Positions 30,487-47,343 of a stretch of DNA of 64,000 nucleotides are shown here, piece by piece; positions within the stretch are counted from its first letter, which is position 1, and each line of letters begins with the position of its first letter. The DNA comes from Rhizobium rhododendri (GTDB lineage: Bacteria > Pseudomonadota > Alphaproteobacteria > Rhizobiales > Rhizobiaceae), in the NCBI RefSeq assembly GCF_007000325.2, contig NZ_CP117268.1, positions 1 through 64,000 on the forward strand. Reading direction: 5' to 3'. A program made the position numbers and the translations under genes. The notes under the pieces were generated by a model. It did not search any database. It saw only the letters and a program-made list of their open reading frames with translations, and was not told where the DNA came from.

Positions 30487-30519
30487 AGTCGAAAGCCTCA
30501 AAAAAGCAAAGCGATACCA

Positions 30520-30545
30520 AGCTATCCTTTCTGATAAGGTTAGCT
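30520..30545. promoter_or_regulatory. Candidate MarR operator
   Basis: AGCTATCCTT (30520-30529) and AAGGTTAGCT (30536-30545) form a dyad with nine of ten matches and a 6-bp spacer, directly upstream of the MarR gene. Size and position fit an autoregulatory MarR site. No copy was seen next to the separate ATPase gene. Confidence 0.6.
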
Positions 30546-30711
30546 ATTACGATCTCGGAACGAGAGACATAGGAGTAGTCTTCCAAGGTCATGATTTGCC
30601 AGATAGTGGATAATTGCAACTATTTTCTGATGAGTTCGCCGATATTTTATTCACCGTTCTGAATTGCCCGTTTATTGGGCGGATACGCATATTCATATGA
30701 GGCAAAACGAC

Positions 30712-30743
30712 AAAAAGCCGCCCTGACACGGGTTCAGGGCGGC
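30712..30743 (-). terminator. Rho-independent terminator of the double-ATPase gene
   Basis: GCCGCCCTGA (30717-30726) and TCAGGGCGGC (30734-30743) form a perfect 10-bp stem with a 7-nt loop. On the minus strand it is followed by TTTTTG (30716-30711). It lies 31 bp after the ATPase stop and separates it from the MarR-led operon. Confidence 0.9.
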
Positions 30744-30773
30744 CACGCTATACGGGATCAGTTTATGGGCGCC

Positions 30774-32417
30774 TCAGGCGGCCGGCTCCCACTCGGCACC
30801 GGGGATCGCCGCGACAAGCTTGCGGGTATAATCGTGGCCCGGCGCGCGGAAAATCTGCGAGGGTGGCCCATACTCGACGATTTCCCCCCGGTACATGACG
30901 GCGACCTCGTCGCAGATCAGGCTCGCGACCCTCAGATCATGGGTGATGAAAATCATTGCCACCTTTGTCTCTTTCTGGATTCGCGTCAGCAACTCGAGAA
31001 TCTGCGCCTGGATCGACACGTCGAGGGCCGACACCGCTTCATCGGCCACCAACAGCACAGGGTCGAACATCAGCGCCCTGGCGATGCCGATCCGCTGCCG
31101 CTGGCCGCCGGAAAATTCATGCGGAAACCTGTCATAGGCACCCTCGTCCAACCCGACCAGCTTCAACGTTCGAAGCGCCTTGGCTTTCGCCTCCGAGATG
31201 GACATCCCATGCGCCACGGGCCCGACGGTCAGGACCCTGCCGATGGTATGACGCGGATTGAGGGAGGCAAACGGATCCTGGAAGATCATCTGGATATAGG
31301 GTCGGATCGATCGGAATGCGTCGTTCGACATCGGCGCGATATCGCGACCGTCGAACAGGATCTGGCCGCTATCCGAATTCATAAGCTTCACCAGAACCCG
31401 GCCGAGCGACGACTTTCCGGAACCGGATTCGCCGACGATGCCGAGGGTTCGCGCCTTGCGGATCGAAAAACTGACATCGTTGACGGCGCGCACAGTTCGA
31501 CCCTTGGTAAAGAACCCGCCGGACGTGTGGTAGGTCTTACTGAGATGAGATACCTCAAGCACGACGGGCGTATCCGCTGCTCCCTGCCGATCCTGCGCGG
31601 TCATGCGCGGAACGGCGGCAATGAGGCGTTTCGTGTAGGGATGCTCGGGCGCGTTCAAGACGATATCGGCAGGCCCCTGCTCCACAAGATGTCCTTTCTC
31701 CATGACGATCACCCGATCGGCAATCTCCGCGACGACGCCGAAATCATGGGTGATGAACATCACGCTCATGTTCTTCCGACGCTGGATCTTGCGGATCAAT
31801 TCGAGAATTTGCGCCTGGGTCGTGACATCCAGCGCCGTTGTCGGCTCGTCGGCGATCAAGACATCGGGATCAAGCGCGAGCGCCATGGCGATCATCACAC
31901 GCTGACGCTGTCCGCCGGAGAGACGGAACGGATACTGATGCTGAAGCAGGCCTGGGTCGGGAAGACCAACCTCGTCGAGAAGACCGAGAACCTTGGCAGC
32001 ACGGCTTTCCGGCGTCCCCACCTTGTGCGCTTCCATCACCTCGGCGATCTGATCGCCGATCGTCATCAGCGGATTGAGGGCCGAAAGCGGATCTTGAAAA
32101 ATGATCGAGACGGCGCGGCCGCGCAACGCCCGCAAAGTCTTTTCATCCGCCTGGATCAGGTCCCGCCCCTTGAACCAGATGCTGCCATGCGTGACGGTGA
32201 TGGCCGGTGACAACAGCCCCATGATTGCATTGGCCGTCACCGACTTTCCTGACCCGGACTCGCCGATGATGCAGAGAATTTCCCCCGATCTCAGATCGAA
32301 GGAAATGTCACTCACCGCATGCGGGCGCTCCATGTTCTTCGGAAGACTGACGGTCAGTTGCCGGACGGACAGAGCAACATCTCCGCCAGCTTCCAGTGGC
32401 ATAGTTTCAGTCTGCAT
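30774..32417 (-). CDS. Oligopeptide-type ABC double ATPase (DppD-DppF fusion)
   Basis: A 547-residue protein with two complete ATPase domains. The first has [13 protein letters not shown] near residue 52, signature [15 protein letters not shown] and DEPTTALD. The second has [28 protein letters not shown] and a Walker B region reading ADEAVSALD, where the usual DEP proline is alanine. Such fusions serve Dpp/Opp-type permeases. The permeases it should power are 5 kb downstream in a different transcription unit, beyond a strong terminator. It is divergent from the LysR gene. Confidence 0.92.
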
Positions 32418-32753
32418 GATGGCGGGCCCTTTCCGATTTTCGCGAAGGCTTGGGGTTATGCAAGAATGATGCCGAATATCGGGAGTTTCCGTGCGGGCGA
32501 ATGCCGAAGCACCCTTGTTGATGATACTACGGCTGGGACAATCGGATGAGCGGACCGCATTTCTAACTCTAAAAACTGAAGTGAACCGTATCGTCTCACC
32601 CGGTCAGTGGGATCGGCGTTACGTCGGATAATGGTCTGCAGCATCAATATCGAAGACGATGCGGCGAACGTCTCGCCAGGTTGCGGCACACGGCTTGGCA
32701 TAAAACATGCTTCTCACCAGCCTGTCACATTCCAAATGGGAAGAAGGCTAGTC
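32418..32753. other. Divergent promoter region between the ATPase and LysR genes
   Basis: About 336 bp with no credible gene. It should contain promoters for both directions and any LysR-type T-N11-A sites. I found no box clear enough to assign. Confidence 0.4.
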
Positions 32754-33746
32754 ATGACGCGACAGGCAAACGGTATGATGGATGTGCGCCTGATGAGGAC
32801 GCTGTTGACCTTGTTGACGGAATGCAGTGTCTCTCGAACGGCCGATATTCTGGGCCAGGCTCAGCCAACGGTAAGTTTAACGCTGAAAAGGCTGCGGGAA
32901 ATGCTGGACGACCCGCTGCTGGTGAGGTCTGGCAGCACACTTGTGCCGACGGAACGGGGCCTTGCGCTGAAGCAGACGTTGCGCGACATTCTCGGCCAGA
33001 TCGACGCTCATCTTTCTCCAGATGCAACCTTCGACCCGAAAACCGCAGCGCGGAACTTCCGCATCATTGCCGATAATTGCCTTGGAGCAGTGTTTCTGCC
33101 TCAACTCGTCGGCAGAATTGCGCAAAAGGCGCCCAATGTGGGTGTCGATGCATCTCATATGCCGAGCTACGAGGATCTGATAAGCCAGTTGGCAGACGGC
33201 TCCATCGACGCGGTCATTGGCAACTGGCCACACCCGCCAGAATACCTGCGGATGTCCCCGTTGCTGACGACCGACATCGTCTGCGTCTTCCGCCCAAGCC
33301 ACCGGCTTGCCAGCCAGCACAAGCCGATCACCATGGACGAGTTTCTGAAAGAGAAGCATCTGTCGCCGACATCGGACAAACGTGCGCATCTCAGCCCGAT
33401 CGACGGCCGGCTGATAGAACTCGGCCTGAAGCGCAATATAGCCGTCTCGGTTCCCGAATATGCGATCACACCTTACGTGCTGACCCAATCCGACCTTGTC
33501 TTTACCACGGGTCGTATTTTTGCCGAGCAGATCGCCCAGTCGTTTCCGTTGGTCGTCAGGGAGGCTCCAAGGGACCTCGGGCAGATGCAGTTCTATATGC
33601 TGTGGCACGAGTGCAAGCATCAGTCGCCCGATCACCTCTGGCTGAGACAGATGATCAAGTCGGTTGCAGCCGACATTCGCGCCTGCGATCCGACGGGCCC
33701 CTTGTCACCCAAAGCCCTTCTTCCTCACGCATCGCTCTACAATTGA
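32754..33746 (+). CDS. LysR-family transcriptional regulator
   Basis: A 330-residue regulator. The N-terminal helix-turn-helix is visible as MRTLLTLLTECSVSRTADIL, GQAQPTVSLTLKRLREMLDD and PLLVRSGSTLVPTERG, within residues ~10-75. The remainder is a type II periplasmic-like effector domain. The DNA-binding domain is of the NodD/NahR-like kind. I chose the ATG at 32754 (AAGG eight bases upstream); the longer frame adds 49 unrelated residues. It lies 138 bp upstream of, and in line with, the polyamine-type transporter operon, and is its most likely regulator. Confidence 0.9.
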   Translation: MTRQANGMMDVRLMRTLLTLLTECSVSRTADILGQAQPTVSLTLKRLREMLDDPLLVRSGSTLVPTERGLALKQTLRDILGQIDAHLSPDATFDPKTAARNFRIIADNCLGAVFLPQLVGRIAQKAPNVGVDASHMPSYEDLISQLADGSIDAVIGNWPHPPEYLRMSPLLTTDIVCVFRPSHRLASQHKPITMDEFLKEKHLSPTSDKRAHLSPIDGRLIELGLKRNIAVSVPEYAITPYVLTQSDLVFTTGRIFAEQIAQSFPLVVREAPRDLGQMQFYMLWHECKHQSPDHLWLRQMIKSVAADIRACDPTGPLSPKALLPHASLYN

Positions 33747-33884
33747 AAGGACCGCTTCCGTTCAGAATGTCCGGCCGCACAAAACTGGCAAAGCGCAATA
33801 TAGTCTATTGTGTATCGGTTATAGGCTTTCCTGACCAAACAGACCACACTCCTCTCAGTTTCCTCGCAACGAGATGAGAGCACG

Positions 33885-34967
33885 ATGGCAGGTTCAGGAA
33901 TTACCCGACGTGAAATACTTGCAGGTATCGCCGCTGGCGCGGCGGCAGGAACTTTCGGCTCGTTGAGCAGCGCGCGGGCTGCCGTGTCGGAGATGGTCTG
34001 GGCAACCTGGGATTCCAACGGCCATCCTGAATACATCGCAGCCTTCGAAGCGCAGACCGGTGTCAAGGTAAAGTTGTCCTATCTCTCCAGCGAAGACGCG
34101 CAGTTTGCGGCGCTGAAAACCGGCACTGCCTCGGATTGGGATATGATCAACCCATCGCTGAACGGAAGCTGGCGCTATATCAAAGCGGGGCTGCTCCAAC
34201 AAATCGACATGGCCAAGATCCCCAACTCCGCCAAGATGTACGATGTCTTCAAGACCACACCCAAGGTCCTCGATGCCTCCGGCAAGCAGTTTGCAGTTCC
34301 CTACCTCTGGGGTCTAAACCCGATCGTCTACCGCAAGGACAAATTCGAAAGCGAGCCAGACTACACGACGCTTTTCAACGAAAAGTACAAGGGCCAGCTC
34401 GCCATGCGCGACTATGCGCTGGAATCGATCGGTATCGCGGGCCTGGTTGCCGGCATCCCGCGCGACAAGGTGTTTTTCATGGAGACCAAGGAGCTTGCGG
34501 AAGCCAAGAAGCTGCTGATTGCCCAAAAGCCGCTACTACGGACTTACTGGCAGACGATCGGAGATCTCACCAACCTGTTCGCCACGGGCGAGGTTTCCTG
34601 CGCATTTTCATGGCGTGTTCCCTACGATACCCTGAAGGACAAGTTGCCGTTGGGCATGGCAAAGCCCAAGGCTGGCATCATGGGATGGTGCGACTGCTTT
34701 GCCATGCCGGCGACCCTGTCTCCCGAAAAGACGGAGATCGGCTACAAGTTCATCGATTATTTGCTCGGTCCGGAATTCGCAACGCAGATCGCCAAGATCG
34801 GCAATTACGCCACGACCTCCTCCGTCATCCGTGACACCTTGTCCAAGGAACAGCAGGAAGCGATCTTCGTAGACGACATGGACGTGATGAAGTCCTTCAT
34901 GTGGCCGGTTGCCCCTGAGAATTACTCAGAGTGGCTGAAGGTCTGGAATGAAGTCAAGGCAAGCTGA
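33885..34967 (+). CDS. Polyamine-type ABC substrate-binding protein (PotD/PotF family)
   Basis: A 360-residue periplasmic protein with a Tat-like signal (GITRREILAGIAAGAAAGTF, cleavage near ARAAV). The mature part follows the family-1 polyamine/iron binding-protein layout: AAFEAQTGVKVKLSYLSSED near residue 54, VPYLWGLNPIVYRKDKFE near 132, and YKFIDYLLGPEFATQIAKIG in the C-terminal half. First gene of the operon that supplies the catabolic enzymes downstream. The ligand is not predictable beyond 'small, probably cationic or polar organic compound'. Confidence 0.9.
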   Translation: MAGSGITRREILAGIAAGAAAGTFGSLSSARAAVSEMVWATWDSNGHPEYIAAFEAQTGVKVKLSYLSSEDAQFAALKTGTASDWDMINPSLNGSWRYIKAGLLQQIDMAKIPNSAKMYDVFKTTPKVLDASGKQFAVPYLWGLNPIVYRKDKFESEPDYTTLFNEKYKGQLAMRDYALESIGIAGLVAGIPRDKVFFMETKELAEAKKLLIAQKPLLRTYWQTIGDLTNLFATGEVSCAFSWRVPYDTLKDKLPLGMAKPKAGIMGWCDCFAMPATLSPEKTEIGYKFIDYLLGPEFATQIAKIGNYATTSSVIRDTLSKEQQEAIFVDDMDVMKSFMWPVAPENYSEWLKVWNEVKAS

Positions 34968-34969
34968 TC

Positions 34970-36052
34970 ATGGTGAATACGCCTGACAGGGCGCCTGATC
35001 TGCCGGGAGCGGGGTTGTTGCTCTCGGCCCGCGGCCTGACCAAGACTTACGGCAGGCAGCGGGTGGTCGATGGCATCGATCTCGACATCCCGGAAAGGGC
35101 GTTCACCACCTTCCTCGGCCCTTCCGGTTGCGGCAAAACGACAATCCTGCGGATGATTGCAGGTTTCGAGAAGCCGGATGCAGGTTCCATCGTGCTGGAT
35201 GGCAGGTCGCTTTCCGGCGTGCCGCCGGAGCGGCGCCCGGTCAACACGGTCTTCCAGAGTTACGCCTTGTTTCCGCATCTGACGGTATTCGGAAACGTGG
35301 CCTTCTCGCTGACGCTGCGTCGAAGCAATATCGATGTGGCAGCCCGCGTGAAACGCGCTCTTGACGCCGTCCACATGGCAGAATTTGCGGACCGATATCC
35401 GCACCAGCTTTCGGGTGGCCAGCAGCAGCGGGTCGCCGTGGCGCGGGCCATCATTGCCGAACCTCACCTGCTTCTCCTCGACGAACCCCTGTCGGCGCTG
35501 GACAAGAAGATGCGCGGACATCTCCAGATCGAGCTGAAAGACCTGCAGCGGCGCCTCGGCATCGCCTTTGTCTATGTCACCCACGATCAGGAGGAGGCGT
35601 TTGCGCTCTCCGATATCGTCGTCGTGATGAACAAGGGCCGCATCGTTCAGAAGGCACCACCGTTGACGATCTACACCCGCCCAGCAAACGCATTCGTTGC
35701 TGACTTCATCGGCGCAGCGACACTTGTTCCCGGCGAGATCGTCGGGAACGGTTCAGTTCCCGGATCGGCCGCGATCAGCACGGCGATCGGTGTTTTCGAA
35801 TGTCCGGCAATCGATGGCCTGTCGCAGGGCGACACGGCAATTCTGGCGATCAGGCCGGAGCACGTCCTTGTCGGCGCAGACGGGTTGAGCGCGACCATCC
35901 AGCACGTGGTCTTCAAGGGTGACCGATACCTCGTCGAAGCCATCGTGAACGGCGTTGCGGTGCGATACATGGCCGATCACCCGATGATGCCGGGAGCCGA
36001 TGTCGCCCTGGTCATCGATCGGCAGCGCGCCTTCATCACGAGGATCGACTGA
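34970..36052 (+). CDS. Polyamine-type ABC transporter ATPase (PotA-like)
   Basis: A 360-residue ATPase with Walker [11 protein letters not shown] near residues 45-54, Q-loop [17 protein letters not shown], signature [15 protein letters not shown], Walker [13 protein letters not shown] and switch histidine [10 protein letters not shown]. The last ~110 residues are a TOBE-type regulatory domain. It starts two bases after the binding-protein stop and overlaps the permease by one base (TGATG). Full length for PotA/FbpC. Confidence 0.95.
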
Positions 36053-36930
36053 TGGATCCGGTATTTCATCGGGCGCAGCTTGCCGTGCCGGTCGCCTGCC
36101 TCTTGATCGTTGGATGCATTTTGCCGCTCGCCTTGCTGGCGGTGTTCAGCGTCTTCGAGGTGGATCTCGATGCTTTCACGCTCGTTCCGGCCTTTTCCGG
36201 GAAAAGCTGGGCGCAGATGTTTAGCAATCCGGTCTTTGCGTTTCTGATCGGCAAGGCTGTTGTCTCAGGCGCAGGCACCGCCGTGCTGGCCGCCACTGTC
36301 GGCTACCCGATCGCTATTTCGATGACGCGCCTCTCGGTTCTCTGGAAAGGGATCGGTAGCATCGTTCTTCTGACGCCGCTTTATACCGGCGAAATTGTCC
36401 GCATTTATGCCTGGCGGGTTGTTCTCGGCTCGGAAGGCCTGATCAACGCCGCTCTGCAATGGGTCGGCATTATCCGTGAACCGTTGAAGTTCCTGTTGTT
36501 TACACCGTTCACCACGCATCTTGTGCTGCTCTACAACAACCTGCCCTTCATGGTGCTGGCAATCTGGATTTCGGCTGAACTGATCGACCATCGCCTGATA
36601 GAAGCGGCAAGGGATCTGGGTGCCCGCCCTCTGGACGCGTTTTTCAAGGTTATCCTTCCCCTGACGACGCCCGGACTGGCTGTCGGCGTGTTTACCGTCT
36701 TTGCACTTGCCGCAGGTGACATGATGACGCCAAGTCTTCTCGGGGGAACGTCTGGTGCTACTCCGATGGCCATGATCGACAATTTGTTCGGAACCGCCTT
36801 CGACTGGCCGCTGGCATCGGCGCTTTCCCTCAGCCTTCTCATCGTTCTTTTCGTGCTTGCCAGCGGCTTTTTAACAATCCTTCTGCGGGTTAGTGGCGCC
36901 AAGGCAGTGTTTCGATGGGGTGCAAGATGA
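36052..36930 (+). CDS. Polyamine-type ABC permease 1 (PotB/PotH-like)
   Basis: A 292-residue inner-membrane protein with about six membrane segments. The conserved cytoplasmic coupling loop is IEAARDLGARPLDAFFKVIL (EAA motif) near residues 182-201, and the periplasmic/membrane region GGTSGATPMAMIDNLF is typical of PotB. It starts on the last base of the ATPase stop and overlaps the next permease by 4 bp. Confidence 0.94.
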   Translation: MDPVFHRAQLAVPVACLLIVGCILPLALLAVFSVFEVDLDAFTLVPAFSGKSWAQMFSNPVFAFLIGKAVVSGAGTAVLAATVGYPIAISMTRLSVLWKGIGSIVLLTPLYTGEIVRIYAWRVVLGSEGLINAALQWVGIIREPLKFLLFTPFTTHLVLLYNNLPFMVLAIWISAELIDHRLIEAARDLGARPLDAFFKVILPLTTPGLAVGVFTVFALAAGDMMTPSLLGGTSGATPMAMIDNLFGTAFDWPLASALSLSLLIVLFVLASGFLTILLRVSGAKAVFRWGAR

Positions 36931-37724
36931 ACCGTATGGTCATTCTCACGCTCGCGCTCGCCGGATGCTTCTTCTATCTTCCGATCGTCGTTCTCGGAAT
37001 ATTCTCTTTCAACGCCGCAAGCACCATGGCTTTCCCCTTGAGCGGCTTCACCCTCTCCTGGTACGGCAGTCTTTTGGGGAATGACGCCTTTCGGGGCGGC
37101 TTTGCCACCAGCTTCTTGATCGCTCAGCCTGTGGGCTTGCTGGGTGCTCTCCTTGGCCTCATGGCCGCACTGGCCCTGACATCGCCACGCATGAAGTTTC
37201 GGGCAGCATTTGCTATCCTGGTTCTCGTGCCCTTTCTGGTGCCGAAGACGGTCCTTTCGATCGCGCAGGCCATGCTCATGAGCTGGGTGGGGCTGGGTCG
37301 CGGTGCGACTGCGCTGATCCTGGCTGAGACTCTGGTCGTCGTTCCCTTCACCACCACCATACTTGCCGCTGTGATGGTTCGTCTCGACCCGCGTCTTGAG
37401 GAAGCAGCGCGAGATCTCGGCGCAACGCCGTGGCAAAGTTTCCGGCGTGTCCTGCTGCCGCAGCTGAGCGTCGCGCTGAGTGCGGCCTATTCCATCGGCG
37501 TCATCCTCTCCCTGGCCGATCTTACCATCTCCATGTTCCTTGCCGGACGAACGCAGCCCCTGTCGCTGATCGTCGCATCGGAGTTCCGGCGCGAACTCAA
37601 ACCCGACCTCAATGCCATGCAAGTTGCGGTACTCGTGCTGACGGCTCTGATCGTGGCGCTGACCGAACTCAATCGCCGCCGCCGCTTGCGTGGCCGTATG
37701 GCGCATTTGCGAGACCAGCTATGA
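36927..37724 (+). CDS. Polyamine-type ABC permease 2 (PotC/PotI-like)
   Basis: A 265-residue permease. The first helix is MVILTLALAGCFFYLPIVVL, and FSFNAASTMAFPLSGFTLSW is the PotC-type periplasmic segment. The EAA loop is LEEAARDLGATPWQSFRRVL. I used the ATG at 36927, which overlaps the previous stop as ATGA. The stop in turn overlaps the start of the FAD enzyme, tying transport to catabolism in one message. Confidence 0.94.
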   Translation: MNRMVILTLALAGCFFYLPIVVLGIFSFNAASTMAFPLSGFTLSWYGSLLGNDAFRGGFATSFLIAQPVGLLGALLGLMAALALTSPRMKFRAAFAILVLVPFLVPKTVLSIAQAMLMSWVGLGRGATALILAETLVVVPFTTTILAAVMVRLDPRLEEAARDLGATPWQSFRRVLLPQLSVALSAAYSIGVILSLADLTISMFLAGRTQPLSLIVASEFRRELKPDLNAMQVAVLVLTALIVALTELNRRRRLRGRMAHLRDQL

Positions 37725-39235
37725 TGATTTCCCCCGTCGATATCCCAGGGACGGCCCTTGACGACTTGAAGCAGGCAGCGCTTGCCGATCTTGCAGCACT
37801 TGGCTATCCGAGCGCGCCGTGGCTCAGCGATCTACCAAGGCCCGACGCCGCAGAGATTGCCGATGTCATCGTTGTCGGCGGTGGCCAGTCCGGCGTCACG
37901 ATAGCGGCCGCCCTGAAATGGGACGGGCTCAGGCGTATCCGCGTGCTGGATAGCAGTGCACCGGGCGCAGAGGGTCCGTGGCTGACGTTTGCGCGCATGG
38001 AAGAGTTGCGCACGCCGAAAACTCAGGTCGGCAACGAGTTCAACGTCGTCAACCTGTCCGTACGCCGCTGGTTCGAAACACGCTACGGGCAGCAAGCTTG
38101 GGCGGAACTGCCGCGCATTCCGCGCACGGACTGGAAGGCCTATCTCGACTGGTATGCCGACGTATTCGAGATCGCCATCACCAACCATTGCACGGTTCTG
38201 GATGTTGCGCCGGACGGCGACCTCATCGCGGTAACCACCAGCATTAGCGGCAGGGTTGAAAAATGCCTGGCGAGAACTGTCGTGCTGGCCACCGGATACG
38301 ATGGCGCCGGCGCATGGAGGGTGCCGGCAATCGTCTCTGGCTCGCTTGCGCCAGACAGGTTCGATCACACCAACGGTCCGGTCGATTTCGGAGCATTGAA
38401 GGGCCGGCGCGTCGGCGTGCTTGGCCATGGGGCCTCTGCATTCGATAATGCCATCAAGGCACTGGAAGCAGGTGCTGCCTCCGTCGATCTCTGCTTCCGG
38501 CGTGCGCGACTGCCCCGCACCAATCCTCACCGCGCTGTCGAGACGCCCGGAATGATGACGCATTACCCCGATCTCTCCGAAACCACGCGCTGGAATATAG
38601 CCAGGTTCTTCCGCAGTGCCGATCAGCCACCGCCGGTGCGTAGTTTCGAGACGGCGATGAGCCTCGACAATTTCCGGCTGCGTCCCGCCACGCCCTGGCT
38701 GGACGTCTCTCAGCAGGCCGATGCAATCCATGTAACGACCCCCAACGGTATCCTGGAGTTCGATCACCTGCTTCTTGCCACGGGCATGGATGTCGATCTC
38801 GCCGCAAGACCTGAACTTAAAACCCTTCACGACCGGGTTGCTCTCTGGGGCGACCGCTATACCCCGCAAGACGGCAGCGCCGATGCCCGACTTGCGCGTT
38901 TCCCCTACCTCGACGGCTTCTACGGATTCATCCCGAGGGATCCAGATGAGACATGGGTCAGCCGGGTGTTCGCGTTCAACAGCAGCAGCTTTGTCAGTCA
39001 CGGCCCTCACTCCACCTCCATCAGTGGGCACAAGCATGCGGTGCCAAGGCTGGTGCGCGGCGTTCTGCGCCGGCTGCTTCTCGATCGCGAAAAGGAGATA
39101 TTGCCGGAGCTGGTCTCCTACGTCTCGGCGGACCTCCCTGTACCGGATGACTTCGAAACAGTGGTAGCCGAGGCCAATCGGCAAGCGGCTAGTTTGCTTG
39201 AAACCGGCAGATCCGATTTGCGGAGTGGCACGTGA
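37721..39235 (+). CDS. FAD/NAD(P)-binding oxidoreductase, monooxygenase-like
   Basis: A 504-residue flavoprotein with two Rossmann motifs: VIVVGGGQSGVTIAAAL (about residues 47-63) for FAD and VGVLGHGASAFDNAI (about 230-244) for NAD(P)H, plus ATG-type motifs VVLATGYDG and LLLATGMD. This layout is shared by flavin monooxygenases of the BVMO/N-hydroxylase kind and related reductases. I did not find a clear BVMO fingerprint (FxGxxxHxxxW), so 'monooxygenase' is a guess. The start at 37721 overlaps the permease stop (ATGA); a second ATG follows at 37724. It probably carries out an early oxidation of the imported compound. Confidence 0.78.
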   Translation: MMISPVDIPGTALDDLKQAALADLAALGYPSAPWLSDLPRPDAAEIADVIVVGGGQSGVTIAAALKWDGLRRIRVLDSSAPGAEGPWLTFARMEELRTPKTQVGNEFNVVNLSVRRWFETRYGQQAWAELPRIPRTDWKAYLDWYADVFEIAITNHCTVLDVAPDGDLIAVTTSISGRVEKCLARTVVLATGYDGAGAWRVPAIVSGSLAPDRFDHTNGPVDFGALKGRRVGVLGHGASAFDNAIKALEAGAASVDLCFRRARLPRTNPHRAVETPGMMTHYPDLSETTRWNIARFFRSADQPPPVRSFETAMSLDNFRLRPATPWLDVSQQADAIHVTTPNGILEFDHLLLATGMDVDLAARPELKTLHDRVALWGDRYTPQDGSADARLARFPYLDGFYGFIPRDPDETWVSRVFAFNSSSFVSHGPHSTSISGHKHAVPRLVRGVLRRLLLDREKEILPELVSYVSADLPVPDDFETVVAEANRQAASLLETGRSDLRSGT

Positions 39236-40050
39236 CCCAATCCTTTTATTGGGCGGATCATTCGACCGCCGACTTTGCAGCCCGCGATTTGAGCGAGACT
39301 GTCGTTATCCTGCCGATCGCAGCTGTCGAGCAACATGGGCCGCATCTTCCCGTGCAGGTGGATGCGGCCATAAACGCTGCCATCCTGGACCGCATGGTGC
39401 GGTTGCTCGACACGAACGCAGACGTCCTGATCCTGCCGTCGATCGGCATCGGCAAGTCCGACGAGCATTTGGCATATCCCGGTACGCTTACCGTATCGGC
39501 CCAGACACTTCGCCTCGTCTGGCTCGATGTGGCCAGAAGCGTAAAACGCGCCGGTGCGCGCAAAATCATCCTGTTCAATTCGCATGGCGGCCAGATTTCC
39601 CTCATGGAAATGACCTGCCGGGATATCCGTGTAGAGCTCGATATGCTTGCGGTCGCTTGCTCCTGGTTCAGGATCGCAGAGGTCGATGACCTGTTTTCGG
39701 CCGCGGAAATCACGCACGGCATTCACGGCGGCGATATCGAGACCAGTATGATGCTAGCCATCGCGCCAGAGCTGGTGGCCATGGACAAGGCAGAGGATTT
39801 CGTACCCTTGACCGTGGAAATCGAAAAGTCCGGCAGCCCGTTGACTGCTGAAGGCGCGGTCGGCTTTGGCTGGCAGGCGCAGGACCTTCACCCGGCAGGT
39901 GTCAGCGGGAATGCCGCCAATGCCGACGCCACCAAGGGCGCTCTCGTGCTTGACCGGGCGGCCGCGGGGTTGGTGCGCCTGATTGCGGCAACGGGCGATT
40001 TTGACATGGAGAGGCTTACCTCCGAAACCCGCTTTTCGGCCGGGAGATAA
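39232..40050 (+). CDS. Creatininase-family amidohydrolase
   Basis: A 272-residue metal-dependent hydrolase. Creatininases open cyclic or linear C-N amide bonds using two metals. Expected ligands are visible in VEQHGPHLPVQVDA near residues 32-45 (Glu, His, Asp), NSHGGQ near 121, and HGGDIETSMML near 165, where HAGEIETS is the commoner form. The start is GTG at 39232, overlapping the preceding stop as GTGA. Relatives include creatinine amidohydrolase, formamide hydrolases in cofactor pathways and mycofactocin/PQQ-linked proteins. Here it is likely catabolic. Confidence 0.88.
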   Translation: MTQSFYWADHSTADFAARDLSETVVILPIAAVEQHGPHLPVQVDAAINAAILDRMVRLLDTNADVLILPSIGIGKSDEHLAYPGTLTVSAQTLRLVWLDVARSVKRAGARKIILFNSHGGQISLMEMTCRDIRVELDMLAVACSWFRIAEVDDLFSAAEITHGIHGGDIETSMMLAIAPELVAMDKAEDFVPLTVEIEKSGSPLTAEGAVGFGWQAQDLHPAGVSGNAANADATKGALVLDRAAAGLVRLIAATGDFDMERLTSETRFSAGR

Positions 40051-40052
40051 CC

Positions 40053-41711
40053 ATGCTGGCACTTCGCGACATCGAAAATCTTCGGATGCCTATGGCGGAC
40101 GGTCTTTACCTGGCGGCCGACGTTTATCGTCCTGTGGGCCCCGAACGCTATCCTGTTCTGGTCATGCGCCTTCCCTATGGGCGTAAAGTTGCCTCGACTG
40201 TCGTCCTTGCCCATCCCGCATGGTATGCGGCGCAAGGCTACATCGTGCTGGTGCAGGATGTTCGTGGCCGGGGTGATTCCGAGGGTGTATTCAGGGTACT
40301 CGAAGACGATGTTGCCGACGGCGCGCAGACGCTGTCGCTGGCGGCCGATCTCGACGGTTGCAACGGCATGGTGGCGAGCTACGGCTTCAGCTACCACGGC
40401 ATGAACCAGTTCCTAGCCCTTGCCGGCGCCAAGAAGACCGGCGGAAAATTGCCCGATGCCATGGCCATCGCCATGGCGGCTTTCGATGTCCGCAATCACT
40501 GGGCATTCGAAGGCGATGGGTTTCGGCTTCAGTCCAACCAGATGTGGGCGTGCCAGATGGCCGTCGAAAACGCCAGGCGGGCCGGCGATCTTGCCACCGC
40601 TCACATGTTACATGCCGCAAAGCCGTCCCTGCATTCCGGTGTTCTCTCGGGAAAGCCTGAGGCTTTGCAGCAGGCAGCACGCTACACGCATTACCAGGAC
40701 TGGCTGACCGACGATCCCTCCTATTGGGGTTCAAGGTCGCCAAAATCGCTTCTTGAAGGTATGACGCTGGATGTGCCTGTGCTGCATGTCGGTGGATGGA
40801 ACGACATTATGCTCGAAGGCACATTCGCAGCCTTCGAGGAGTTTTCCGTTGGCGGCAGTCTGCAGCGACTGTGTGTTGGACCCTGGTCGCACATTCCCTG
40901 GGGCCGACGGGTCGGCGCCCTCGATGCCGGGGCGGAGGCTGCAGACGGCATAGACCGCCAGATCGTCGGCTTCTTCGACGAAGTGCTCAAAGGCCGCGAG
41001 AATATCGAACCGAAGATCAAGCTTTATGACGTCTTCGACAAGGCCTGGGCCGGCTTCGAGCGGCTTCCGGACGCGCAGACACTTGTGCTTCATCTCGCAT
41101 CTGACGGTCGTGCAGCGGCAACGAGCACGGATGGATCGCTTGTTGAAACGCCAGGGCCTTCGAGAATTGACCACCTCGTGCACGATCCATGGCGGCCAGC
41201 ACCGAGCGTGGGCCTTCATCTCGGAACGCCTGCCGATTTTGCCGACAGGTCGGACGTCGACGATAGGGCCGATGTGCTCGTCTATACCTCGAAACCTTTC
41301 GCCCTCCCGGTTCTGCTGAGTGGAGTGGCGGAAGTCGATCTTTTCGTCACTGCCGACAGGCCGAGTTTCGACCTCGATTGCACGTTGAGCACAGTGGCCC
41401 CGGATGGAGCCGTAATTTGCTTGACGTCGACACATAAGACAATAACGGCGAATAAAGATGGACTGGCCGTTCTGCTGAGGTTACGGCCGACGTATCTGAC
41501 GATCCCGGCGGGATATTGCCTGCGCCTGTCGATCCAGTCAGCCTCTTTCCCCGCCTTCCCCGTCAATCCGGGCACCGGCGCACGCCCCCAGGACGCGAGC
41601 GTCACGGATCGGCTTGTCACGACCCTCATGCTCCGCTCCGGCGACGGCTACCCCTCCGTCTTGCGCTTACCGATGCTGTCGCAGGCCACTGCCGGCGGTA
41701 CAGCATCGTAA
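40053..41711 (+). CDS. CocE/NonD-type alpha/beta hydrolase (peptidase S15 family)
   Basis: A 552-residue serine hydrolase. The fold and triad match cocaine esterase and X-Pro dipeptidyl acylases: nucleophile Ser in YGFSYHGMNQ near residue 112, Asp in HVGGWNDIMLEGT, and His in VGPWSHIPWGRR. VLVQDVRGRGDSEG is the hallmark strand before the nucleophile. The C-terminal jelly-roll domain (DRSDVDDRADVLVYTSKP onward) is present. Such enzymes cleave esters or amides. It follows the creatininase-like gene by two bases and precedes the questin-oxidase-like gene by 16. Confidence 0.88.
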   Translation: MLALRDIENLRMPMADGLYLAADVYRPVGPERYPVLVMRLPYGRKVASTVVLAHPAWYAAQGYIVLVQDVRGRGDSEGVFRVLEDDVADGAQTLSLAADLDGCNGMVASYGFSYHGMNQFLALAGAKKTGGKLPDAMAIAMAAFDVRNHWAFEGDGFRLQSNQMWACQMAVENARRAGDLATAHMLHAAKPSLHSGVLSGKPEALQQAARYTHYQDWLTDDPSYWGSRSPKSLLEGMTLDVPVLHVGGWNDIMLEGTFAAFEEFSVGGSLQRLCVGPWSHIPWGRRVGALDAGAEAADGIDRQIVGFFDEVLKGRENIEPKIKLYDVFDKAWAGFERLPDAQTLVLHLASDGRAAATSTDGSLVETPGPSRIDHLVHDPWRPAPSVGLHLGTPADFADRSDVDDRADVLVYTSKPFALPVLLSGVAEVDLFVTADRPSFDLDCTLSTVAPDGAVICLTSTHKTITANKDGLAVLLRLRPTYLTIPAGYCLRLSIQSASFPAFPVNPGTGARPQDASVTDRLVTTLMLRSGDGYPSVLRLPMLSQATAGGTAS

Positions 41712-41727
41712 AAGAGAAGTTTGATCA

Positions 41728-42777
41728 ATGACTGCAACAGAAAACCTATCCGAAGGACTGGAGGCTGTCATGGGCGACATGCCGGCATGGGGCTCGGAGT
41801 TCTCACGCACCTTCGCCAATCATGCTCCCATGGTACTCGTCGCACTGGACCGGATAGGCGGCACGCCGTCTCAGCTTCGGCGCTTCTTCAACCACTACAG
41901 AGATACAAAGCAACTGCTGCCATTCGCGTTGCCTTTGAAGCCACTCAACCGCGACAGCTGGAAGACTGCGATCGGGATACGCGAACGGGAACCGGATCTG
42001 CGAATTTTCTTTACCGGCGAACTGGCGCGCCTGGGCATTCATGAGGCTTTGCAGCTCTATCTACCGGATCTTGCCGACGGCATCGCAGCCAGCGCCTTTC
42101 ACGCATTGATGCGAACGGCTTACGGCGTGCTTCGGGACGACAACACCGATATCGCAATTGCGCTTGCCTACTGGGCGGCAACCTATCTGCCACTTCCGGC
42201 GGCCAGGGGAGCGCACCCAATCACGACCGATCCAGCCGAAGTTCTCGTTCTGACAGCAAGTCTCACGCCATTACACGGGATGCAGCTTCACGACCTGCTG
42301 TGGCAAAATATGCGCGATGCCAGCAGCGTTCCCGAGTTTGCACCCGTGGTGGACTGGCTTGATATCGGGCCTGGCACACTGCAAAAAATGGCGGCCACGG
42401 CGCTTTCCGTCTTTGCGGCAACCCAGCATTTTGCGGCACTTCACATCATCACCGGGTTGCACTGGATCCGTCTCCTCGAGCCTCATTGCGACGAGGCCGC
42501 GTTCCACCGGATGTTGCGGGTGTTCTGGCAAGGGATCGCCGCGCTCATGGGTGAGCTTGGTTTTCCGGAAATTCCGGAGGCGAGCCAGCTTGATCGCTGG
42601 CGTCATATCGAAGTGCCGGATTGGCCCGAACTGCATGCGATCGCCGCGCGCAGTTACGACGAACACGATATCAGTCTTGCTTTTTCGGCCAGCGAAGAAA
42701 TGAAGGTCTACGGGGATCCGCTCTATCGCGTTGTTGTCGCCCGTCGACTCGGGCTTATCGGAGACTATACCAAATGA
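41728..42777 (+). CDS. Questin-oxidase-family-like protein (DUF4243)
   Basis: A 349-residue helical protein that I match by pattern to the questin oxidase family: HALMRTAYGVLRDDNTDIAI followed by ALAYWAATYLPL near residues 129-160, with scattered conserved histidines (TPLHGMQLHD; FHRMLRVFW). Fungal members perform ring-opening oxidation of anthraquinones; bacterial members are essentially uncharacterised. It has no signal peptide or flavin motif of its own and might use the FAD enzyme encoded upstream. The stop overlaps the amidohydrolase start (ATGA), so it is clearly part of the operon. Family assignment needs a profile search. Confidence 0.65.
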   Translation: MTATENLSEGLEAVMGDMPAWGSEFSRTFANHAPMVLVALDRIGGTPSQLRRFFNHYRDTKQLLPFALPLKPLNRDSWKTAIGIREREPDLRIFFTGELARLGIHEALQLYLPDLADGIAASAFHALMRTAYGVLRDDNTDIAIALAYWAATYLPLPAARGAHPITTDPAEVLVLTASLTPLHGMQLHDLLWQNMRDASSVPEFAPVVDWLDIGPGTLQKMAATALSVFAATQHFAALHIITGLHWIRLLEPHCDEAAFHRMLRVFWQGIAALMGELGFPEIPEASQLDRWRHIEVPDWPELHAIAARSYDEHDISLAFSASEEMKVYGDPLYRVVVARRLGLIGDYTK

Positions 42778-44348
42778 GCCCGGACGCATCCATCACAGGC
42801 GATTGCATCATTGAGGCCGGGACAGTGTTGTCGGGGCTTATGCCGGATGGCAGCATGTCGATGCGCCATGACGTCGGCATCCGGGTGGATCGCGGGATGA
42901 TCGCGCAGATCGGGGCGATGGAAGCCGTCACATACGGCAACGACCATCTGCCCCGTTTCGGATCTGCCGAGATGATTGCCATGCCGGGGCTCGTCAATAG
43001 CCATCATCATTTCGGCGTCACGCCGCTGATGCAGGGCGTGCCCTTCGCGCCGCTGGAATTATGGCTGCCGCAGTTTCGGGCGATGCGCCAGGTCGATACG
43101 CGGCTGGATACGCTCTATTCCGCCATCGAGATGCTGGAGAGTGGCACCACGACGGTGCAGCATATCAACAGCGGAATGGCCGGCGCGCCGGACGCCTGGA
43201 TGGCTGCTGCGAATGCGACGCTCAACGCCTATGGCGAGATCGGCATGCGGGCCGGCTTTTCCTTCATGATCCGTGACCGCAATATTCTGACTTACGATGA
43301 CGACGCCAAGGTGCTGGCCGCCCTTCCGGATACCGTTCGCAGCTGGATCGCGCCGAGACTTGCGGCATCGAACATACCGGTCCCGGAGCTTCTCGGCTTC
43401 TACCGCGAGCTGCGGCAAGCCTGGCTTGCGGACCGCCCGGATCATGTGCGCATCAATCTTGCCCCGGCCAACCTGCACTGGTGCTCGGACGCATGCCTGC
43501 AGGCGATCTTCGAGACGGCGCGGCAAGCCGACGCCCAGGTTCACATGCATCTTCTCGAAACCGAACGGCAGTCGCATTTCGCGCACGACAAATTCGGCCA
43601 CAGCGCCGTCCAGCATCTGAAAGCGCTCGAATGCCTCGGGCCAAATGTGACGCTCGGGCACGGCAACTGGATGAGCCGCGAGGATATGGACATCGTAGCA
43701 GAATGCGGCTGCAGCCTGTGCCATAACGCCTCCTCGGGCCTCAGGCTCGGGAGTGGCATCGCCCCAGTCAACGAAATGCGCCGTCGCGGCATTCCGGTGG
43801 CGCTTGGCATCGACCAGTCCAACATTGCCGACGACCGCGACATGACGCTCGAAATGAAGCTGGTCTGGGCGCTGCATCGCGAAACCGGGTTTTGGAACGA
43901 ACGGCCGGATGCCGGCGCGGTGCTGCAGATGGCCACCGAACATGGCGCGAAAACTGTCGGTTTCGGTGGCTTTACCGGCAGGCTCGAACCCGGGCTACAG
44001 GCCGATATCGTCCTGATGGACAGGCGAAAGATCGGCCGGCCGCATGTGAGCGCGCGCACTCCGGTCGTCGAAAGCGTCCTGCACCGGGGTGGACGCCACG
44101 CGATCAGCCAGGTCTTCGTCGGCGGTCGTCTGGTGGTCGACGAGGGAAAGGTCACAACCATCGATCGCGACGCGGTTCTCGCCGAGATCGGCGAGCGGCT
44201 GCAGCGTCCGGAAACGCCAAGCGAGAGCCAAGCCTGGGAGGCGATAAACGCCCTCATGCCGCATCTCGAGGCGCACCACCGTCAGTTCACACCGACGCCA
44301 GGATATCGCCCCTATCGATACAATGCGATGGCGGACGGGATGGATTAG
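42774..44348 (+). CDS. Amidohydrolase, ATZ/TRZ (guanine/cytosine-deaminase-like) family
   Basis: A 524-residue metal-dependent hydrolase or deaminase. Metal and catalytic positions are seen in order: NSHHHFG near residue 75, MHLLETERQ (His plus Glu) near 259, GHGNWMSREDMD near 293, and LGIDQSN near 344. In the last, the usual LGTDG..SN aspartate is kept in a shortened form. The family dechlorinates or deaminates triazines and purines and hydrolyses S-adenosylhomocysteine analogues. The start overlaps the preceding stop as ATGA. It is the last gene of the operon and is followed by a hairpin. Confidence 0.88.
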   Translation: MSPDASITGDCIIEAGTVLSGLMPDGSMSMRHDVGIRVDRGMIAQIGAMEAVTYGNDHLPRFGSAEMIAMPGLVNSHHHFGVTPLMQGVPFAPLELWLPQFRAMRQVDTRLDTLYSAIEMLESGTTTVQHINSGMAGAPDAWMAAANATLNAYGEIGMRAGFSFMIRDRNILTYDDDAKVLAALPDTVRSWIAPRLAASNIPVPELLGFYRELRQAWLADRPDHVRINLAPANLHWCSDACLQAIFETARQADAQVHMHLLETERQSHFAHDKFGHSAVQHLKALECLGPNVTLGHGNWMSREDMDIVAECGCSLCHNASSGLRLGSGIAPVNEMRRRGIPVALGIDQSNIADDRDMTLEMKLVWALHRETGFWNERPDAGAVLQMATEHGAKTVGFGGFTGRLEPGLQADIVLMDRRKIGRPHVSARTPVVESVLHRGGRHAISQVFVGGRLVVDEGKVTTIDRDAVLAEIGERLQRPETPSESQAWEAINALMPHLEAHHRQFTPTPGYRPYRYNAMADGMD

Positions 44349-44439
44349 GGCAGATAGGGGTTGCACGGCACTTTCAGGCGACGCCGTCCGGGAAAAGAGA
44401 AAATAACAATAGCGTAAATTCAAAATGCTTCGCGTGTCC

Positions 44440-44465
44440 CCTCGGCTGCAAAACGTCAGCCGAGG
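44440..44465. terminator. Hairpin between convergent amidohydrolase and chemoreceptor genes
   Basis: CCTCGGCTG and CAGCCGAGG form a perfect 9-bp stem with an 8-nt loop, 91 bp after the amidohydrolase stop and 31 bp after the chemoreceptor stop (minus strand). Neither side has a long T-run (TTCATCT on plus), so termination is probable rather than certain. Confidence 0.65.
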
Positions 44466-44496
44466 TTCATCTCACCCATCCAGGCGCAACGCCTGG

Positions 44497-47064
44497 TCAG
44501 GCGGCGCGGCTGGCGGGTTTGGTGAAGCTGGGGTTCTTTTCCAGGCTGAAGCGGCCGATGAGTTCGGTCAAGGCGTGGGTTTCGTCCGAGAGCTGGCGTG
44601 TCGCGGCGCTGGTTTCCTCGACCATGGCGGCATTCTGCTGGGTCATGCGGTCGATTTCGTTGACCGACGAGGTGACTGACCGCAGGGACTGCGCCTGCTC
44701 CTGGGCGGAAGAGGCGATCCGCTCGACGTGACCGAAGATATCGACGATTTCTCCCGAGATTCCGATAAGGGCGCCGCCGGTTTCCTCGACATATTGCGAT
44801 CCGATGGCGACTTCGTTGACCGAGGTATTGATAAGCTGGGCGATCTCCTTGGCGGCCTTTGCCGAGCGTTGCGCGAGTTCACGGACTTCCTGGGCGACGA
44901 CGGCAAATCCCTTGCCGGCCTCGCCTGCCCTTGCAGCCTCGACGCCGGCATTGAGCGCCAGCAGGTTCGTCTGGAACGCGATGCCGTCGATGACGGTGAC
45001 GATGTTCGAGATCCTGTCGGAGGATTCCTTGATCCTTGCCATAGCCGAGACGGCGTTCTGCACGACCCTGGCCGAGTTTTCCGCGCGCTGCTTGGTGTTC
45101 TGCACCAGTTTTAGCGCAAGGCCGGAGCGATCCGAAGAGGTATCCACAGTGGCGGCGATCTGTTCGACGGCGGCAGCGGCCTCCTCCAGCGATGCGGCCT
45201 GCTTTTCGGTGCGCATTGCCAGATCGTTGACGGCTTCCCCCATTTGCCGGCCATTGTCATAGATCATCTCGGCTGTGCCGCGGATGTCGACCAGCGTCGC
45301 CCTGAGGCCTTCGATGGACTGGTTGAAATCGTCGCGCAGCCCATCGAGATGGGGTGCAAACGGCACGTCGATCGCAAAATCGAGTTCGCCCTTGGAGAGC
45401 CTTTTCAACGCCAGTCCGAGAGCCTCGATCGCTCCGTCGACCTGGACGCGTGCCTCACGGCGCTCGCGGTCATTTCTGACGCGCTCGGCCTCGGAGAGCT
45501 CTCTCGCGCTCTGGGCCTCCTTTTCCATGACCAAGCGGGATGTGGCGTTGTCCTTGAAGACCATCAGCGCGCGCGCCATGTCGCCGATCTCGTCAGGACG
45601 ACCCTCGCCGGCAATGGCGGTGTCGAGCTTGCCTTCGGCGAGCTTGCGCATCGCTATGGTGATCTGGGCGATCGGTCCCTTCAGCGTCATCACGAGGGCT
45701 GCGCCAGCCAACATCGCGACGAGGACGCCTATGGTCATGGCGCCGATGGAGATCGTGTTCGCCTGCTGGCGTTCGACACCGGCATTTGCCTTCTGGCTTT
45801 CCGCAAACTGCGTAAGCAGGTTCCAGGTGCTGTCGATCAACTTGGCGGCGGCGGAAAATTGCGCCTGCTTTTCCAGGGAGTTGGCAGCGATGTCGGCAGC
45901 CTTGGAGGCAAGCGTGTCGAGCACCGGCTTGACCTTGGCCGGAAGCACCGAGAGGACCGGGTCGTCGCTCATCAGCGCAGCAAGGGCTGCAACCTCGTTG
46001 GCGTACATATAGAGCGACTGCTGGACCTTCTTGACGCTCTCTTCGTCGGGCTTGGAAACGAGCTCGGCGAAGACGACGCGGATTTCATTGTTGATGTTGA
46101 CGATGCCGCGCAGCTTGTTGCCGACGGCTTCTGCCATGGAGATTTCCTTGTCGGAGGTGGCGAGATCGAGCACCGAACGGCGCATCAATGCGTCACCGGT
46201 CGCCTTCAGTTTCGCGGTCGGCGCCTGGAGGGCGAGGAGTGCCTGGTCGGCAAGCGCGACTGCGGCGTCCGGGCTTGTCGCCTTGCTCTGTTGATCGAGA
46301 ACAGCGACAGATGCCTGGATGTCGCTTGCAACACTCTTCTGGTCATCCGGCAGCGCGTCGGCAAGCAGCGAGACCGCGGTGACCAGGTCCGGCACGAGCT
46401 TCTTCAGCGCCGCAATCTTGGCATCGGGAAGCGCTGCCTCGGCATAGGCCTTTTCGAGGTCGGCAATCATCGAGGCTGCCGTTCCCAATGCCACCGAAGT
46501 CTTCAAGCCGGCCTTGTTGGTGTTGTCCTTTTTCTTCGCCGCCGCCATCAGCATGAAGGAGCGCTTGCCGATCTGTCCCTGCAGATCGAGCAGCGCTGCC
46601 GAGTTCGCAACGATGTCATCCCAGATCTTCTGCTGGTTGAGCTGGAGCTGCCAGATTGCCTCGATCTTGTCGGGAATTGCTGCGGATTCCGAAAGAGACT
46701 GGTCCAGCAGGGAGACATCCGTTCCGGCGCGCAAACCTTCGGTGGTCTGCTTCAGGAGGCCGAGCTGGTCGCGGGCCTGGGCCGCAGCACCGTCGTGCGT
46801 TTCCTGCGAAGGCTGCATCAGGAAGGTGCTCATGCTGGCGAACACATGCTTGAAGCCGCTGAGCGACTGCAGGACGCTGTTCGAGACCTCCATCCTGCCT
46901 TCGAGCAACCGAGAGGCATAATAGCCCGTCAGGCCGACCGCGCCGATACACAGAATGAACGGTGTCACGAGCACCAGAACTTTTGTCTGGATCCGCACCC
47001 GCGACATCATTTTGTCCATCATATTTTTCATTTTCCCGACCGTCCCCGTCTCATTGTCGCTCAA
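44497..47064 (-). CDS. Methyl-accepting chemotaxis protein
   Basis: An 855-residue membrane chemoreceptor. A first membrane helix at about residues 29-50 ([20 protein letters not shown]) is followed by a long, Ala-rich, all-helical periplasmic sensor of about 390 residues, then a second helix near 440-463 ([20 protein letters not shown]). A HAMP domain and the cytoplasmic signalling hairpin follow. The tip is present as [20 protein letters not shown] followed by [19 protein letters not shown]. There is no CheR-binding pentapeptide at the C-terminus (ends TKPASRAA). The oversized helical sensor is unusual in size and gives no ligand clue. It is flanked by catabolic clusters and may sense one of their substrates. 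Confidence 0.94.
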
Positions 47065-47343
47065 GGTGCCACGAGTTTATAAAATTGCCGTTAAGCATAC
47101 TGGAAACCTGCGGCCTTATTCCCGTTTTACTTGCGCCGTGCTCAGTCGGATTCGTTCGACGTTGCGAGCACGATCTTCAGCCGGAAGCTCTATAGTCGTA
47201 CGTCATTTTAAAAGTTGTCACCGGCGATCTTTTTGGCGGGCCGGGACGGTTGTGCGAATTTCCGGTCAGCGGTTGCACTTCGTTGATTAACAACGCATAA
47301 TTCCACCTCTGCACATTCTGGCAGACAGGAACGTCGCATATCG

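Follow-up and report, generated by a model that had tools for sequence, protein, structure and literature searches.

What compound do the products of ten consecutive genes of Rhizobium rhododendri, a soil bacterium associated with roots, take up and transform? The genes lie at 32754 to 44348 of the stretch analysed here, the first 64,000 nucleotides of contig NZ_CP117268.1 (hereafter, the window), and encode a LysR-type regulator followed by a periplasmic solute-binding protein (SBP), the ATPase and two permeases of an ATP-binding cassette (ABC) transporter, a flavin adenine dinucleotide (FAD)/NAD(P) flavoprotein, a creatininase-like enzyme, a CocE/NonD hydrolase (CocE), a questin-oxidase-like protein (QOX) and a TRZ/ATZ-type amidohydrolase. 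A preliminary description had presented them as ten co-directional genes, nine of them tightly coupled, and both the arrangement and the gene names hold, as each of the ten frames is open on the forward strand at the coordinates of Table 1 and Pfam bears out the names of all ten proteins. From the coordinates, 138 bp separate LysR from SBP, and then comes a tight run of nine genes (33885 to 44348) joined by overlaps or gaps of at most 16 bp: 2 bp between SBP and ATPase, an overlap of 1 bp between ATPase and permease 1, one of 16 bp between the permeases from start 36915 (4 bp if a second possible in-frame ATG, at 36927, is used), overlaps of 4 bp at permease 2/flavoprotein, flavoprotein/creatininase-like and QOX/amidohydrolase, and gaps of 2 bp before and 16 bp after CocE. 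Terminator-like sites within 32400-44600, counted on both strands, do not exceed chance (seven found, 9.4 expected from shuffles). These data support a single co-directional unit. In our reading, to which we would give about an even chance, it is a LysR-controlled operon for the catabolism of an N-heterocyclic compound; the gene set and its order, their conservation, the predicted folds, the conserved residues and the family-level neighbours are its basis, and from them we infer every reaction, metal, regulatory relation and the substrate of the operon.

The first line of evidence is that the set recurs. Screening public genomes with aligned QOX proteins yielded 79 distinct loci (from the best 80 of 85 confirmed stretches), which are not independent, because QOX likeness was the criterion of choice and many of them come from Rhizobium; the window's own operon is counted among them as L028, on chromosome 2 of Rhizobium sp. 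L51/94, whose QOX is 100% identical. Genes in these loci were called by a home-made codon-score method, rough for starts and small genes, with annotated records as a check. The complete set, comprising LysR, SBP, ATPase, two permeases, flavoprotein, creatininase-like enzyme, QOX and amidohydrolase, was called in 24 of the 79 loci, always in the same order and on one strand, with LysR in the same place (24/24 in each case); a symbiotic strain, R. lusitanum P1-7 (L034), is among the carriers. CocE, present in 14 of these operons and absent from 10, stands outside the fixed set. A gene of the cytidine-deaminase fold (the single member scored matches PF00383) precedes QOX in 13 of these 24 operons according to tblastn, as against 12 by gene calls, the copy in L035 being in two pieces; beyond the 24 it was found only in L056 (40%), and the window operon is without it, a 63% identical homologue lying in the genome at C1:3321946-3322380. 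Despite differing local layouts, the flavoprotein and QOX share a locus (up to about 10 kb apart) in 73 of the 79, and where both genes were called they lie within 3.5 kb of each other in 67 of 72. In 61 genomes searched separately, QOX (E <= 0.001) occurs in 11, the flavoprotein (E <= 1e-30) in 16 and both in 10 (Fisher one-sided p = 9e-7, for genomes that are related and not independent), and of 12 QOX copies at E <= 1e-45, with a copy divided between two contigs taken as one, 11 have the flavoprotein within 5 kb, that of genome G032 being the exception. The same gene order, which the preliminary description had proposed to seek elsewhere, is therefore found elsewhere, and its alternative of a chance placement is not borne out: recurrence of the set beyond chance is supported. 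At the scale of 398 genomes of the phylum, QOX appears at E <= 1e-15 in four; besides the window genome these are G029 and two distant ones (L111, L112). Of 8000 candidates scored in one QOX search, 1042 are related at E <= 0.001; a plasmid search with a distant QOX gave 77 records, all Rhizobium by tally, and Streptomyces and Nonomuraea, counted in other plasmid searches, are not among the matches listed with the distant QOX.

The second line comes from the company that homologous clusters keep, for which one or two proteins per recurring family were scored against Pfam and NCBIfam (families f50, f33, f34, f36, f49 and most few-locus families were left unannotated). Beside the clusters of the window's type (type A, with a PotD-type importer) there are 38 loci with a sugar importer (type B), in which QOX was called in 36, the flavoprotein in 35, an FGGY kinase in 31, a cytosine-deaminase-like amidohydrolase in 30, DeoR in 29, BtpA and a short-chain dehydrogenase in 28 each, an isochorismatase-fold hydrolase in 17, and allophanate hydrolase and 8-oxoguanine deaminase in 13 each (13/79 loci each). 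Type C (L049-L051) has creatininase-like, amidase, AtzH-like, isochorismatase-fold and gamma-glutamyltranspeptidase genes, and type D (L056, L061, L062, L066, L103) other importer permeases with an NMT1-type binding-protein family. The representative of allophanate hydrolase scores 698 and 661 bits (cut-offs 487 and 511) and that of 8-oxoguanine deaminase, from L075, 622.5 bits against NF006055 (cut-off 532); an AtzH-like protein is found in four loci, and the nearest PDB chain to the isochorismatase-fold protein is a biuret hydrolase (3e-27). There is also a bridge locus, L082, where the window's importer families (the ATPase, overlooked by gene calling, was shown by tblastn) stand with QOX, flavoprotein, creatininase-like, cytosine-deaminase-like and isochorismatase-fold, biuret-hydrolase-like genes. 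In five Martelella loci a block of LysR, creatininase and CocE genes, 41-54% to those of the window, adjoins sugar-type QOX clusters. Annotated records carry the same gene names, for type B on plasmids of R. leguminosarum (pRlBT01b, Vaf-108 and pRLN4, the last, L134, being of the allophanate-hydrolase type) and for the window type in R. tumorigenes 932. What is common to these neighbours is a concern with amino groups on oxopyrimidine rings, with cyclic imides and with acyl-ureas ending in allophanate.

Three observations on these clusters may be added. Allophanate hydrolase and 8-oxoguanine deaminase never occur in one type B locus, as if they were alternatives for one fragment, an exclusion that is partly due to kinship. 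The type B short-chain dehydrogenase (L078, 3159-3938) closely resembles quinuclidinone reductase 3ak4 (1.9e-110), and its context might show the natural substrate of enzymes of this kind. In L103 (Shinella sp. UYSO24) and L099, QOX and its neighbours match in several pieces, hinting at disrupted frames or errors in the sequence.

What, then, could QOX contribute? It scores 68.2 bits against PF14027 (Questin_oxidase, cut-off 27), the only match to this family in the window genome. A single-sequence search of the PDB gave nothing at E <= 10, its relatives there being visible by profile and fold; the structure prediction proposed beforehand for this product places it by fold comparison, and the profile search agrees, in the PF14027 fold of the solved BTG13, PaD and AflY. 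Its H32 (192/195 rows), H125, H239 and H313 (195/195 each) align with histidines of BTG13, and it is predicted to be a non-heme-iron ring-cleaving oxygenase. In the QOX tree (74 rows) window-type labels cluster, with 3 changes against 21.1 in shuffles, although near-copies make such clustering easy; on starred branches the allophanate-hydrolase type requires at least five changes and the 8-oxoguanine-deaminase type at least two, the root being set at the midpoint. Since PaD is titled a hydroquinone dioxygenase and BTG13 a questin oxidase, with AflY as the third solved relative, and CocE belongs to an esterase family, one may also think of a nitrogen-free or nitrogen-poor aromatic (a plant quinone, hydroquinone or polyketide), hydroxylated by the flavoprotein and cleaved at a hydroquinone ring by QOX in the manner of its fungal relatives, with CocE and the amidohydrolases opening esters and lactones. 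We consider this improbable, as the deaminases, allophanate hydrolase, biuret-hydrolase relatives and AtzH-like neighbours would have no evident role in it, and CocE is missing from 10 of the complete operons. BTG13, PaD and AflY serve polyketide biosynthesis, whereas QOX is found in operons that look like uptake and catabolism.

The partner of QOX carries two Rossmann nucleotide-binding motifs (GGGQSG at 53 and GHGASA at 235), and its predicted fold is that of a class B flavin monooxygenase of the N-hydroxylating type, nearest to ornithine, putrescine and cadaverine N-hydroxylases (by VIA-align 2, which ranks only chains put forward by Foldseek); an oxygenation dependent on nicotinamide adenine dinucleotide phosphate (NADPH) is predicted. 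For its homologues away from QOX, eight regions were fetched (G005 and G011:C90 were left out). One of them, L141 of genome G046 (about 834-16872), has a flavoprotein homologue (43%) beside an 8-oxoguanine deaminase (604.5 bits, cut-off 532), an amidase, a PuuE-like protein, an HpaB-type hydroxylase, an arylmalonate-decarboxylase-like protein, an aminotransferase and a histone-deacetylase-fold protein, and may be another heterocycle pathway. In the same genome, L140 (9261-15508) joins a window-type importer to a flavoprotein (65%) and the cytidine-deaminase-fold gene (61%), the QOX, creatininase-like and amidohydrolase genes being absent beside it. In L139 the flavoprotein stands near hydantoinase B, with an AMP-binding enzyme between them, and in L136 its neighbours are LysR and an SBP_bac_3 importer; the gene lengths of L136, the only one scored, recur in L137, L138, L142 and L143, these being five genomes of the window's genus.

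The importer had been called polyamine-type, and this is true of its family only, because part of the PotD ligand residues is lost. All four transporter proteins belong to the families of the PotABCD and PotFGHI polyamine importers, but they stay below the curated cut-offs of the models listed (the best 25 for the ATPase and permease 2). The best PotD-type PDB chain matches SBP at 9.9e-24, while the PotD equivalog model gives 89.9 bits (cut-off 582); in an alignment read by eye, at positions that we take to be ligand contacts of PotD, a Trp and the Glu171-, Trp229-, Trp255- and Asp257-like residues are kept and the Glu36-, Tyr37-, Tyr85- and Asp168-like residues replaced. Such a pocket would better suit a ligand that is basic or bears an amino group at one end than a diamine. 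The N-terminus of SBP (33885-33980) has a stretch, ITRREIL, that we regard as twin-arginine-like, and for this reason the protein may be exported folded.

The hydrolases keep their presumed catalytic or metal residues (in the row counts the window appears both under its own name and as L028): E33, H35, D44, H118 and E170 of the creatininase-like enzyme and H77, H79, H259, E262, H296 and D347 of the amidohydrolase in 38/38 rows, and the Ser-Asp-His triad S113, D251, H280 of CocE in 19/19. The name creatininase-like stands as a Pfam label and not for creatininase itself: the score against TIGR04448 is 90.4 bits (cut-off 235), and Glu122 of creatininase, presumably a ligand residue, aligns with Gly120. 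CocE reaches 324.5 bits against TIGR00976 (cut-off 66.3) and matches cocaine esterase at 3.8e-39. This last likeness, together with the PotD type of SBP, the fold of the flavoprotein and the quinuclidinone-reductase-like dehydrogenase of the sugar-type clusters, would suit an aliphatic or alicyclic amine or an alkaloid, imported as a cation and N-hydroxylated, after which QOX would complete a C-N or C-C cleavage and CocE remove an acyl group. That the PotD amine pocket is partly lost, that sugar-, NMT1- and PotD-type importers are all found in loci with QOX and the flavoprotein, and that 8-oxoguanine deaminase, allophanate hydrolase and AtzH-like proteins are neighbours makes such a substrate rather unlikely.

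If we return to an N-heterocycle, the theme of the neighbours, a class B monooxygenase and a ring-cleaving fold together make hydroxylation, ring opening and hydrolysis or deamination the simplest reading. The succession proposed would be: (i) import of the compound by SBP and the ABC transporter; (ii) oxygenation of a ring carbon, a ring nitrogen or an exocyclic amine by the NADPH- and FAD-dependent class B monooxygenase, giving an electron-rich hydroxylated heterocycle; (iii) breakage of the ring with O2 by QOX, as a PF14027 non-heme-iron oxygenase; (iv) hydrolysis of amide, imide or ester bonds and removal of amino groups by the creatininase-superfamily enzyme and the TRZ/ATZ amidohydrolase, helped by CocE and, in relatives, by the cytidine-deaminase-fold enzyme; (v) and finally, release of ammonia from the acyl-urea nitrogen, a step for which relatives have biuret-hydrolase-like enzymes and allophanate hydrolase and the window's host perhaps such enzymes encoded elsewhere on the same replicon. 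This order, already sketched in the preliminary description, fits the folds and the homologues' neighbours, and the substrate then given as a cyclic or aromatic nitrogen compound keeps its nitrogen ring and is narrowed to an acyl-urea-yielding N-heterocycle, because those neighbours include 8-oxoguanine deaminase, allophanate hydrolase, biuret-hydrolase relatives and an AtzH-like protein. As to the last step, the window genome has at C2:1492000-1511900 (L133) an AtzD/TrzD-type ring-opening hydrolase (469 bits), an allophanate hydrolase (800 bits), two isochorismatase-fold hydrolases and an ABC ATPase, a group that resembles known cyanuric acid and biuret gene sets and whose enzymes could take acyl-ureas further.

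Among substrates, a 2-amino-oxopyrimidine ring, of the guanine/8-oxoguanine, pterin or diaminopyrimidine type, would be the best supported class, because it best explains the 8-oxoguanine-deaminase and deaminase-fold genes; the sugar genes of type B suggest that in some relatives it is carried on a sugar or polyol, as a glycosyl or polyol conjugate. Such a conjugate brings to mind riboflavin and lumichrome, a fused N-heterocycle with a polyol chain, where QOX would open the flavin ring and the sugar kinase and polyol-type dehydrogenase of related clusters would use the ribityl chain. We think this explanation very unlikely, since no Rfam family reaches the gathering score in 30000-48000 and seven related loci show no FMN (flavin mononucleotide) riboswitch (only a cobalamin riboswitch in L063 and a small RNA in L060, each at about 19 kb of its locus and away from QOX at 10 kb). 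In addition, although the rca and lum systems likewise degrade a fused pyrimidine ring by oxidation and hydrolysis, their enzymes differ from those of the operon: RcaE, a P450, a thiamin-dependent decarboxylase, a xanthine oxidase and Rieske and catechol dioxygenases (PMC12746152), as far as the available part of the source names them, none of which is among the ten proteins of the operon. An older Pseudomonas route, which passes through a quinoxaline dione by enzymes not known, is still conceivable. Vicine, the pyrimidine glycoside of faba bean, was set aside and retained as one candidate only: the literature matches listed (titles and beginnings of abstracts) held no rhizobial pathway for it, nor was there a glycosidase among the families annotated.

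A biosynthetic or modifying role has a bacterial counterpart. OzmD is reportedly an iron enzyme that rearranges a pyridine. MinC, from the pathway of the N-heterocyclic C-nucleoside minimycin, carries, according to the accessible portion of its description, a DUF4243 domain, which is PF14027 (PMC8724604). The comparison of QOX with MinC and OzmD, whose pathway yields an oxidized N-heterocycle on a sugar, is by domain name only, and MinC may serve as a bacterial precedent for PF14027 in N-heterocycle chemistry. If the operon likewise made or modified a small N-heterocyclic metabolite, as with minimycin or oxazinomycin, the transporter would supply a precursor, and the likeness of the flavoprotein to siderophore N-hydroxylases would find a place. 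The minimycin pathway, in that same partial source, is antibiotic biosynthesis with a nonribosomal peptide synthetase and a C-glycosynthase (PMC8724604), whereas neither is among the ten proteins of the operon, which include an importer and three hydrolases, and relatives add allophanate hydrolase; we hold this explanation to be highly improbable.

Several findings weigh against an N-heterocycle catabolic operon as drawn here. The diagnostic nitrogen genes sit in related clusters, not in the window operon, whose own amidohydrolase has 169.7 bits against the 8-oxoguanine deaminase model NF006055 (cut-off 532), and in the relatives some scores are low, with 104 bits for the isochorismatase-fold protein against BiuH (cut-off 370), 207 for the cytosine-deaminase-like protein (438) and 311 for the PuuE-like protein of L141 (425). 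The pairing has gaps: six of the 79 loci are without the flavoprotein (L053, L094 and L105, cut short on one side, and L068, L074 and L101, which are not), six of the 61 genomes have the flavoprotein without QOX, and the surroundings of the two distant QOX genes (28-30%; L114 and L115) hold no flavoprotein match nor the rest of the set. L046 keeps flavoprotein, QOX and amidohydrolase without creatininase or a full transporter, and the importer is not of one kind across the cluster types, so that substrates may vary as well. In QOX itself, by a profile alignment whose residues were counted by hand, Ser316 (195/195 rows) occupies the position of BTG13 Lys377, which we take to be the carboxylated iron ligand, and Met35 (195/195) that of His58, the residue mutated in 7y3x; QOX thus lacks both marks of the BTG13-type carboxylated-lysine iron site, which may differ in it or be absent, and it is further set apart from BTG13, PaD and AflY by an additional invariant His245 and an identity of 13-17%.

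Table 1. Genes of the operon in the window, with the basis of each assignment
Feature	Position	Strand	Basis
LysR-type regulator, 330 aa	32754..33746	+	PF00126 and PF03466 over cut-off
Periplasmic solute-binding protein (SBP), SBP_bac_8, 360 aa	33885..34967	+	Pfam; PotD-type PDB chains
ABC transporter ATPase, ABC_tran and TOBE_2	34970..36052	+	Pfam; PotA model 358 bits, cut-off 482
ABC permease 1, BPD_transp_1, PotB-like	36052..36930	+	PotB model 138 bits, cut-off 348
ABC permease 2, BPD_transp_1, PotC-like	36915..37724	+	PotC model 123 bits, cut-off 326
FAD/NAD(P) flavoprotein, class B monooxygenase fold (predicted)	37721..39235	+	Pyr_redox_3/Lys_Orn_oxgnase
Creatininase-superfamily amidohydrolase, GTG start	39232..40050	+	PF02633 Creatininase, 229 bits
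CocE/NonD serine hydrolase, optional member	40053..41711	+	Peptidase_S15 and PepX_C; TIGR00976
Questin-oxidase-like protein (QOX), predicted non-heme-iron ring-cleaving oxygenase	41728..42777	+	PF14027
TRZ/ATZ-type amidohydrolase, predicted deaminase or ring/amide hydrolase	42774..44348	+	PF01979 Amidohydro_1, 133.8 bits

Convergent with the end of the operon, on the reverse strand at 44497-47064, lies a chemotaxis receptor (MCPsignal, HAMP); by the gene calls, none of the families shared with the other loci includes it. L046, of Methylorubrum zatmanii, where LysR and pieces of permease 2 precede flavoprotein, QOX and amidohydrolase, resembles a window-type operon with a reduced importer.

How far is such a system already described? 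Operons for the catabolism of heterocycles are known, and the pair of flavoprotein and QOX is, as far as we have seen, undescribed: in the open-licence literature (most subscription papers lay outside the search) we found no characterised cluster with this gene set, which agrees with the preliminary description, no questin oxidase reported together with Rhizobium and no mention of a "questin oxidase family protein". The nearest relations are with s-triazine, triuret and biuret catabolism (AtzD/E/G/H/F, TrtA, BiuH), whose allophanate hydrolase, isochorismatase-fold hydrolases and AtzH-like protein are also found in QOX clusters, though not in the window operon; those pathways are hydrolytic, and their named enzymes include no QOX or flavoprotein of this kind. 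In L049-L051, gamma-glutamyltranspeptidase, amidase and AtzH-like genes stand together, like the ggt-atzG-atzE-atzH clusters described in the portion available of PMC6219798.

Going further, it is conceivable, though we put it forward with some doubt, that flavoprotein and QOX form an unreported two-enzyme ring-opening module that turns 2-amino-oxopyrimidines of the guanine/8-oxoguanine, pterin or diaminopyrimidine type, which some hosts would meet as sugar conjugates, into acyl-ureas of the biuret, triuret or allophanate kind, with a PF14027 iron site that has no carboxylated lysine, and that it would be an enzymatic natural source of triuret and biuret, compounds degraded by plant-associated bacteria. 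To our knowledge, PF14027 enzymes are known from fungal polyketide chemistry and from one antibiotic pathway, and here a bacterial branch of the family sits in uptake operons with nitrogen-releasing hydrolases. Should the proposal be true, heterocycle catabolism would gain a new ring-opening step and a family annotated by name only would gain a function. The natural origin of triuret and biuret, left open in the accessible part of a study in which triuret degraders have plant-associated hosts and the natural source of triuret is unknown (PMC7948467), would then become testable.

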